NCBI RefSeq assembly: GCF_011386835.1 | Contig: NC_088800.1 | Location: 25,707,059-25,771,058 of the forward strand | From: Chrysemys picta bellii | Taxonomy: Eukaryota > Chordata > Testudines > Emydidae | Length of the DNA stretch: 64,000 nucleotides | Direction of reading: 5' to 3' | Shown here: positions 24,401 to 27,400 of the stretch, piece by piece | Numbering within the stretch: the first letter of the stretch is position 1 | How the letters are laid out: every line of letters starts with the position of its first letter | The notes under the pieces: generated by a model | Seen by the model: the letters and a program-made list of their open reading frames with translations, nothing else | Database searches by the model: none | What the model was told of the DNA's origin: nothing | Translations under genes and position numbers: made by a program

Positions 24401-27400
24401 TTAAATGGTTAAATCTCTTACAGAGTTGATCTTTTGGTTTTGAAAGCTATTTGTTCTTTGGCAAAGTTTGTAGTACATTATTCAAGACTAATTAATATTT
24501 AATTAAAGAGAGATGAATTGTAGATATGTTTCAGAAAATTTGGCTGAATATCATAAGCTGAGTCTGCACTATGTTGATCACAGATATTGAAGACTGACAT
24601 CTTTGGAGTCTAGAGAGTCTGTATATGTGGGTTGGGATAGCATGAGTTTTAACCTCTGTTTTATTTTTGTGCCTTTGGCTTCATTTCTCTAACGTAAAAC
24701 TTTTCTTTTAATTCTCTGCACTCTTAGCAAGTGAAGAGCTTAACGTCTAAAGAAGTATATTATTATACTATAGTATATTCTTATTTTTGTCTCTGTTTCA
24801 ATGTCCCAAACTTATCGTATTCATATGTGTGTACAGTGGATGACACTTGATATTGAGTGTCCGGATGAATTTTAAAAGCTACTTTAAAATCCAGGTCATC
24901 TTTGTATGGTTGGTAATATTTAAGCCACACAGAAATGAGGTTGTGATGGATATTTTCTTGATCCTGCTTTGCTCCCCAGCAACTTTTGAGGTTTCTTTGC
25001 TTCCTCAGCTGCTCTTCTGTGTGTATGTAGACAGAGACTCACCAGCTGGCTTCCATCCTCTGTGCTGCTATACCTCACCTAAAATAATTTTAGCAACCTT
25101 CTTGTTTGTTCTGTTCTAGAGAGGGATGGTATTAAACTTCAAGGGGATGCTACCTCCTTCCCTGGAACAGGCACTACAATTGAATTCTGCTACTCCCCAA
25201 ACCCTCTGCAAATGTCACTTCCTCCCATTGTCTTTCACTCATTAATTCTTGATGAGTGAACTCTGTACTCTCAGGGAGAATGAGTGGTATGGATACATGG
25301 GATGGGAGACAGAAACTTCTGAGTTCTGACTCCTTTAATTTCCTTTGGGCAAGTCACTTTACTCTGCCTCTGTAAAGGAGTTGATAATGCTTGTGTGCCT
25401 CTCAGGGCTGTGGTGAGGATTAACTGTTTGCAGAGCACTCTGAAGATAAATTTCTGTAAGTGTTTATTGTTATCTGCCTAGTGGGGAGAGAATTCATGAG
25501 CAGTGTAGCCATGGAATCATTGGCACTAAATACCTCCTTGCACTTGTTCACATTTATCGAATTTAGGGGCCACAAAATACACCAGGACAGTGAAGAAAAG
25601 GAAGAAATTTTAGACCCTTAATTTGCCAAAACAGTGAGTTGTACTGCAGGAAAACTAGAATTACTGATCTCAAATAATGAAGTACTGCTGGCAGCACTTC
25701 ATAGTGCAGTTTGTCTACACCAGCAGCCCCCAAACTTTTGAGGGTCATGCCCTCCCTTACACCTGTCTGCACCCTCTCCACCTCCCACTGTAGTTGGGGC
25801 TGGGAGTGGAGCTACAGCTCCAGGGATGGGGGTGGGGGATGAGGACAGGGGCAAGGGTGCCAAGGCTGGGGTCGCAGCTGGGGGTGGGTCTGGGACTGGG
25901 AGTGGGGCCAAGTCTAGGGGTGGAGCCACACCCAGGTTGCAGCCAGGTGTGGTTCTGCTCCCGGTCTTACGCCCCAGCCTCAACCCCAGTCCAGGAACGG
26001 AGCTGCGGGCGAGGCTGAGGGCTGATGCAGGGCTGGGAGCAGAGCCATGCTAATGCTGGGGACAGGGACAGGCCTGGGGCTTGGAGCCGGGGATGTGGGT
26101 GGGGGTGGGACTGGGTGGCGCTCACTCCCCGTCCCCTTGAGGACTGGCCCAGGTCCTGCATGCTCCCCGGATGTTCCTCCACATCCCCCTAGCGGGGTAC
26201 GCCCTACACTTTGGGGGCCTCTGGTTTACACAAACACAAGCACAGAGGTCTGAATGACTAGAATCCCAGACACAAATTGTGCACTTGCCTTAAGAAGGCG
26301 AAAACTGACTCAAGAACAATCTAATGAACAGTGGAGATAAGTACGGTGATTTGGTCCTTGATCTCACTTTAGCCAAACCCCAAAAATCACCAGCAACCAC
26401 GCACCGCACCATAACAACTTTAACTCAGGAACCAACCCATGCAACAAACCTCGATGCCAACTCTGCCCACATATCTACACCAGCAACACCATCACAGGAC
26501 CTAACCAGATCAGCTACAACATCACCGGCTCATTCACCTGCACGTCCACCAATGTTATATATGCCAGCATATGCCAGCAATGCCCCTCTGCTATGTACAT
26601 TGGCCAAACTGGACAGTCACTACGCAAGAGGATAAATGGACACAAGTCAGATATCAGGAATGGCAATATACAAAAACCTGTAAGAGAACACTTCAACCTC
26701 CCTGGCCACACAATAGCAGATGTAAAGGTAGCCATCTTACAGCAAAAAAACTTCAGGAGCAGACTCCAAAGAGAAACTGCTGAGCTCCAGTTCATTTGCA
26801 AATTTGACACCATCAGATCAGGATTAAACAAAGACTGTGAATGGCTTTCCAACTACAGAAGCAGTTTCTCCTCCCTTGGTGTTCACACCTCAACTGCTAG
26901 CAGAGCACCTCACCCTCCCTGATTGAACTAACCTCGTTATCTCCATACTGATTTATACCTGCCTCTGGAGATTTTCATTACTTGCATCTGAAGAAGTGAG
27001 GTTCTTACCCACGAAAGCTTATGCTCCCAATACTTCTGTTAGTCTTAAAGGTGCCACAGGACCCTCTGTTGCTTTTCCCAAAAATTTAGTGGACTTCAGA
27101 TTCTACTTCTAACCCACTGCTGTTGAACTTCAGAGTGTGATATGCCTTCATATGAAACACCTCTGGGATGCATTTTTGAAAGGTTTCAGAGTAGCAGCCG
27201 TGTTAGTCTGTATCCGCAAAAAGAAGAACAGGAGGACTTGTGGCACCTTAGAGACTAACAAATTTATTAGAGCATAAGCTTTCGTGGACTACAGCCCACT
27301 TCTTCGGATGTTACTCATAAGACACATTCCTGTGCCCATTTTTGTGCCCCCCCCCCCCCTGAATGTCTGTTCTGGCTGTTGTGAATATTGATATCTAAGG

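Follow-up and report, generated by a model that had tools for sequence, protein, structure and literature searches.

The tails of a Penelope-like retrotransposon (PLE) of the turtle Chrysemys picta bellii likely carry a minimal type I hammerhead ribozyme motif, probably placed at the 5′ end of the element RNA and read in a register that corrects the one originally proposed. The sequence of the motif, its position in the element, and the clustering of insertion ends at its start are direct observations; a hammerhead fold in vivo, a transcription start at the motif, and catalysis are inferences. It is a known type of PLE hammerhead, for which catalysis is a possibility. Within the 64,000-nucleotide stretch analyzed here (the window), we confirmed all five hammerhead-like stretches of the original prediction, at 20774-20811 and 27270-27307 on the minus strand and at 26988-27026, 33222-33259, and 36387-36424 on the plus strand, and each of them lies in a PLE tail, as had been proposed. 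A stem II hairpin, GAAA, and AGCTTATGCTC are common to the five copies. The hammerhead core CUGANGA...GAAA is kept except at U4 (CCGAAGA in 20774, 27270, and 33222; CCGATGA in 36387; CTGAAGA in 26988): C at this position in four of five copies, 26988 retaining U4, had been correctly described, as had one extra A before stem II, which directly follows A9 in all five (A10). The motifs are laid out as follows.

33218..33257, plus strand: hammerhead motif of subfamily A, based on sequence, descriptor match, and folding; stem I GCAT 33218-33221 with ATGC 33254-33257; C3 at 33222; A10 at 33229; stem II 33230-33235 with 33240-33245; GAA 33246-33248; AGCT 33249-33252; H17 = T at 33253; predicted cut between 33253 and 33254.
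36383..36422, plus strand: hammerhead motif of subfamily A with N7 = T, based on sequence and descriptor; predicted cut between 36418 and 36419.
26984..27024, plus strand: hammerhead motif of subfamily B (U4, bulged stem II), based on sequence and predicted fold; predicted cut between 27020 and 27021.
20776..20815, minus strand: hammerhead motif of subfamily A, based on sequence and descriptor; predicted cut between 20780 and 20779.
27182..27311, minus strand: solo LONG tail with the hammerhead motif, ending in CTGAAACC; +1 is A and stem I has 3 bp; predicted cut between 27276 and 27275, based on sequence.

The original prediction closed stem III as a hairpin, AGC-UUAU-GCU, with the cut past a downstream C (C17) and stem I weak; in that register stem I might also be provided from elsewhere. 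Stem I is indeed weak when read in this way, pairing at 0-2 of four positions (one in A, two in A2, none in B); with the 3′ side moved six bases upstream, GCAU/AUGC forms all four pairs in the strings of A, A2, and B alike. This stem I is present in four of the five window copies, with 3 bp in 27270 due to its A at +1. In the revised register, H17 is the base preceding AUGC, the predicted cut falls between GCUU and AUGC, six bases before the site first proposed, and stem III shrinks to the minimal A15.1-G-C-U16.1 (AGCU), which, being its own reverse complement, could form only between two motifs. Stem II, like stem I a feature of the minimal type I fold, is found in 5/5 copies; in 26988, given earlier as a straight GUGAGG/ACCCAC, it is instead predicted to fold with a bulge, GUG-(A bulge)-GGU/ACC-CAC. 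The earlier register is favored by the folding of 91-130 nt RNAs of subfamily A, which prefers the AGC/GCU hairpin, and by seven of 46 insertion arms that start at +41..+44, one insertion being counted twice via a duplicated locus. Against these arms, the starts of L065, L077, and L080 in this range, read by eye, lie in AT-rich microhomology. We rejected this register, which we consider a very improbable reading, as its stem I forms 0-2 rather than four of four pairs and the base that varies among T, C, and A is U36; moreover, published PLE hammerheads lack helix III, according to the excerpted text of PMC7761336. A minimal hammerhead in PLE tails is supported by its position, its core, the domains found in one copy, and the PLE hammerheads described in print; the hairpin stem III and the C17 site are not supported.

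The five motif-bearing tails belong to a Penelope-like element. One window copy contains a 466-aa stretch that places a reverse transcriptase and a GIY-YIG domain in a single ORF (PF00078 and PF01541, both above cut-off), and the other features of the group are found as well, namely, tails, the inverted pLTR arrangement (as head-to-head pairs), and target duplications. The copy ending at 20774 is the longest in the window, and coding stretches similar to the 466-aa one, read by eye among the repeats, precede 26988 and 36387. Besides the LONG tail at 27182, the insertions of the window read as follows.

20723..22402, minus strand: 5′-truncated PLE whose 466-aa open stretch is part of the reverse transcriptase plus GIY-YIG, with a SHORT tail at the end; the limit at 22402 was set by eye.
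33218..33308, plus strand: solo SHORT tail whose first base is exactly at +1 (GCATCC).
35844..36470, plus strand: one insertion, with an inverted piece of a LONG tail on the left (35844-35867), a PLE body in which a GIY-YIG coding stretch was recognized by eye, and a SHORT tail on the right; a 12-bp flank, TTTCTAAAGTGA, stands on both sides.
37750..37877, plus strand: head-to-head LONG and SHORT tails without a whole hammerhead.
56798..56859, plus strand: tail truncated within the hammerhead, starting AAAGCTTATGC.

The family is abundant: GTTAGTCTNTAAGGTGCCAC, the tail pattern, has 77,585 genomic matches (none for its reversed control), and at 41,829 sites the tail anchor is preceded by GCATC at the spacing of the motif. 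The best 120 of 1768 matches include relatives annotated in several turtle genera; none were found in viral contigs (protein and pattern searches), in the genome_contigs collection (pattern search), or in phages. A peptide search through the motif gave no match. In the literature searched, four strings of tail letters were not found in print, and no paper joins hammerhead ribozymes, Penelope, and turtles. Separately, the palindromic tail pair at 37781-37882 resembles microRNA families below threshold (mir-4861, 49.6 of 100 bits; mir-1781, 42.1 of 68; MIR1878, 32.7 of 70), most likely through its hairpin shape alone.

Applied to 264 kb (the window plus 200 kb), a descriptor of the revised fold, allowing C or U at position 4 and written after the motif had been seen, picks out five loci, all of them PLE tails; three belong to the window and two lie outside it. 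It misses 26988, due to the bulge, and 27270, due to the 3-bp stem I. The same descriptor has zero matches in an order-1 simulation of 4.2 Mb, both strands counted, and, restricted to U4, zero matches in the 264 kb. A match to a hammerhead covariance model did not materialize: Rfam returned no hammerhead at the gathering score in the window, nor at E up to 10 in 20 kb and in two single tails. Together with the lack of significant covariation described below, this is what speaks for a chance resemblance spread by a repeat family, the least probable reading that we weighed; it is opposed by the empty simulation, by an element and a place that match those of reported PLE hammerheads, and by the pattern of freedom in the core.

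Stem II had been described as kept by pairing despite base changes, and this was offered as key support; it is conserved with some base exchanges (G-C and A-U at pair 4; C-G, U-G, and U-A at pair 6). Its five pairs form in 468 of 495 cells across 99 strings, compared to 36 to 58% when the two sides are slid. The covariation is not significant: in a shuffle test of 30 strings, hand-chosen from the placed set, 163 of 180 cells pair (mean of the shuffles, 159.9; 143 of 2000 shuffles score at least as high), and two-sided changes number four versus 3.7 in shuffles. Stem II is thus conserved, with exchanges, but its pairing is not significantly above that of shuffled strings and its two-sided changes are as many as expected, so the support from covariation is weak.

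We analyzed the variation of the motif in 101 strings typed from two genome listings (43 + 58), 99 of which were placed. The strings are distinct over the typed length, although some share one motif and at least one is present in both sets, and, since they are related, the changes in them represent few independent events; seven listed rows whose motif contains indels were not used. Because GCATC was a fixed part of the search pattern, neither C3 nor the 5′ side of stem I could vary, and covariation of stem I lies outside the data. Variation in the core is greatest at N7 (A43/C35/T20/G1), position 4 (C67/T31/G1), and H17, which follows U16.1 and is A, C, or U throughout (T61/C37/A1/G0). The hammerhead consensus leaves N7 and H17 free. 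In the same 99 strings, U16.1 (99), A13, A14, and A15.1 (98 each), and A9 (97) are nearly fixed, the 3′ arm of stem I is kept in 94/99/97/96, and the remaining free positions between G5 and 1.4 are conserved in 80-99/99, least so G12 (80), G8 (88), and G5 (90), which many copies have within a CpG context. Variation is also seen at position 1.5, beyond the 4-bp stem. C17 marks a subfamily with the CTATAAGG tail, in which many copies have C17 and others T17; this tail with GCATC in range occurs at 1863 genome sites, T17 copies included. The rows C1:2551355, C1:2551519, and C1:2832351 carry AAGCTTCTGC, which breaks one stem I pair, and other changes are common in them; they are possibly one subfamily, and two of them may be the arms of one insertion.

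The letter at position 4 bears on whether the motif still cuts. A U4C change would be expected to harm the hammerhead, and C4 in most strings counts against the hammerhead reading. One C4 haplotype makes up 44 of 100 among the matches listed and is the commonest, which indicates that C4 was no bar to spreading. The original prediction suggested that each copy may be a fossil of an active ancestor, an idea made less certain by C4 being the commoner letter and sitting on the commonest haplotype. A related explanation, which we hold possible but somewhat doubtful, is that the motif descends from a hammerhead whose catalysis is gone and serves as a structured 5′ end, bound by the reverse transcriptase/endonuclease or aiding translation or RNA stability, with C4 tolerated. 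The C4 of the commonest haplotype agrees with such a loss, whereas the freedom of N7 and H17, with A9, A13, A14, A15.1, and U16.1 nearly fixed, speaks against it.

Insertion ends offer a second view of the motif. Insertions were read in three sets: 28 loci similar to one tail; the window plus 200 kb evenly spaced; and 34 tail-pattern loci, consisting of 18 close pairs and 16 single hits hand-picked among the first tail-pattern matches regardless of the motif, with wide pairs left out. Arm positions were counted from the G of GCATC (+1), and arms running into the element body were left out. Arms start at -3..+2 in 11 of 30 cases in the window plus 200 kb, a tally that includes the window, chosen for its motif, and at -5..+2 in 19 of 46 cases in the 34 picked loci. 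By eye, TATA-like letters precede the motif by ~30 bp in subfamilies A and B. Given how many arms begin at or just before the G that opens stem I, the motif probably forms the RNA 5′ end; most simply read, reverse transcription proceeds until it reaches such an end at this point. Near the start of the predicted cut product, +37, arms are scarce (0/30 at +36..+38 and 1/46 at +35..+38), a scarcity that also favors a motif without catalysis. On these counts, we rejected the idea that most template RNAs have ends made by cleavage at +36/+37; cut RNAs are at most a minor template source. Six joints of two +37 ends (subfamily A) were found genome-wide, a count that stands without a control joint, and with this reservation they argue against lost catalysis. 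Three of them are simple (L083, L084, and L088) and three rearranged (L085 to L087), L086 consisting of three segments that start with ATGCTC; a two-base microhomology could be the source of the ATGCTC joints in L083-L088. As a separate observation, the arm joint at the palindrome AAGCTT, found at 37 genome sites and in L042 and L047, is consistent with microhomology joining of two cDNAs.

Insertions with two head-to-head tails are frequent (13 of 21 in the window plus 200 kb), and the flank shared by paired insertions has a median of 12 bp in 49 pairs, compared to a median of 5 in the shuffled control, in which 1.9% reach at least 8. The two tails differ in length: the LONG tail runs to CTGAAACC or its like and the SHORT tail to TTCTT or its like, and LONG pairs with SHORT in 29 of 30 head-to-head pairs and in 21 of 23 in the 34 picked loci, sets that contain two duplicates (L015 = L014; L066 = L065). 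The exceptions are L013, cut by the locus edge, L079, broken off at +63, and L074, an apparent true SHORT/SHORT pair. One could imagine that the motif couples two template RNAs, head-to-head tails arising from LONG and SHORT starts with their 5′-end hammerheads facing each other as an AGCU dimer, and that dimerization rather than cleavage is selected. In 24 comparisons of arm with arm, a subfamily-marking difference appears only in L026 (A vs. C at +77); in the others, markers are shared, none are shown, or the differences resemble later mutation. In L017 and in the window pair at 37750, the arms seemed to differ by three bases, which the sequences and the target duplication of L017 showed to be alignment effects at the tail end. 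The arms of L026 may have been copied from two RNAs, a single case in which later mutation is possible. Since it alone suggests different template RNAs, we consider the coupling of two templates highly improbable, and self-priming is compatible with the arm data.

In predicted folds, the outcome depends on RNA length. In the 42-nt unit, stem I forms with a probability of 0.89-0.96 in subfamily A and 0.94-0.98 in the corresponding stretch of B. Subfamily A RNAs of 91-130 nt instead favor the AGC/GCU hairpin (0.81-0.95), with stem I close to 0, and in the 91-nt minimum-energy fold the core GAAGAA pairs with the tail UUCUUC. A2 at 88 nt gives stem I 0.3 versus the hairpin 0.6; in subfamily B, stem I has a probability of 0.02 in the 95-nt RNA, and at 134 nt the two are roughly balanced. 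Judging from these models, subfamily A RNA probably rests in a fold other than the hammerhead, which fits the protein-dependent cutting of the Anolis hammerhead (PMC11167929). The alternative fold of the longer subfamily A RNA is also in line with a motif whose catalysis is gone, as is the insertion in vitro of Anolis RNA with a dead hammerhead (PMC11167929).

In the preferred reading, an active or once-active minimal hammerhead at the RNA 5′ end, the element RNA would start at or within ~4 nt of GCAU, behind the TATA-like letters ~30 bp upstream, and GCAU would pair with AUGC as stem I. The core C-Y-G-A-N-G-A with its extra A would lead into stem II and then GAA, and stem III, the palindrome A15.1-G-C-U16.1, could arise only by pairing across two motifs or with the aid of protein. 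H17 and A would then flank the cut, which separates GCUU from AUGC, or GCUC from AUGC in one subfamily. In the C4 subfamilies, such cutting is probably weak, dependent on conditions, or lost, and it probably does not determine where most new insertions end. Tens of thousands of copies, with subfamilies differing at U4, N7, and H17, form a natural mutant series for cleavage, RNA start, and insertion success, and two observations constrain how PLEs insert: insertion ends cluster where stem I starts, and LONG tails are nearly always paired with SHORT ones.

The hammerhead of CChMVd has full stems and U4. It is a viroid hammerhead, in which it differs from the turtle motif, and its plus-strand form has, like the turtle motif, an unpaired extra A10 after A9, which lowers trans-cleavage moderately (PMC3705267, in its excerpted text). 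Also close are the minimal PLE hammerheads of Cervera and de la Pena 2014 and Lunse et al. 2017, as reported in passages of PMC7761336 and PMC6155905 and referenced in PMC10085705. These are minimal type I ribozymes without helix III (excerpts of PMC7761336 and PMC6155905; PMC11167929), and the same excerpts of the first two bear out the earlier statement that PLE terminal repeats can carry minimal hammerheads, possibly acting as dimers. As described by the citing papers in the parts available, they share with the turtle motif a minimal core, a helix III that is missing or tiny, and, for PLE hammerheads, a proposed dimer action; the turtle motif differs in the C4 of most strings, the extra A10, and the AGCU stem III.

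Two other Penelope systems compare at the level of the element. Bdelloid Penelope, in the available portion of PMC3846280, has a TATA and an initiator in one pLTR, and self-priming has been proposed for it; the word hammerhead is absent from that text. Like the turtle PLE, it shows inverted head-to-head pLTRs and target duplications, the latter of 8-10 bp compared to the turtle shared-flank median of 12, and a short tail on one of two pLTRs is optional in bdelloids, whereas it is nearly constant in the turtle element (PMC3846280, same portion). The Anolis Poseidon element PAc, compared by its description, resembles the turtle PLE in combining a reverse transcriptase with GIY-YIG, and its motif lies at the pLTR/ORF junction (PMC11167929). 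Its hammerhead, at the ORF start, cuts only with protein, and insertion in vitro can do without the ribozyme; reverse transcription begins at two internal sites of the RNA, so that tails are left, and both target strands are cut and extended (PMC11167929). In PAc, the cut lies 26 bp after the start codon and the ORF begins from stem II, whereas in the turtle element a 64-aa stretch (20752-20946) crosses the motif and stops in the tail.
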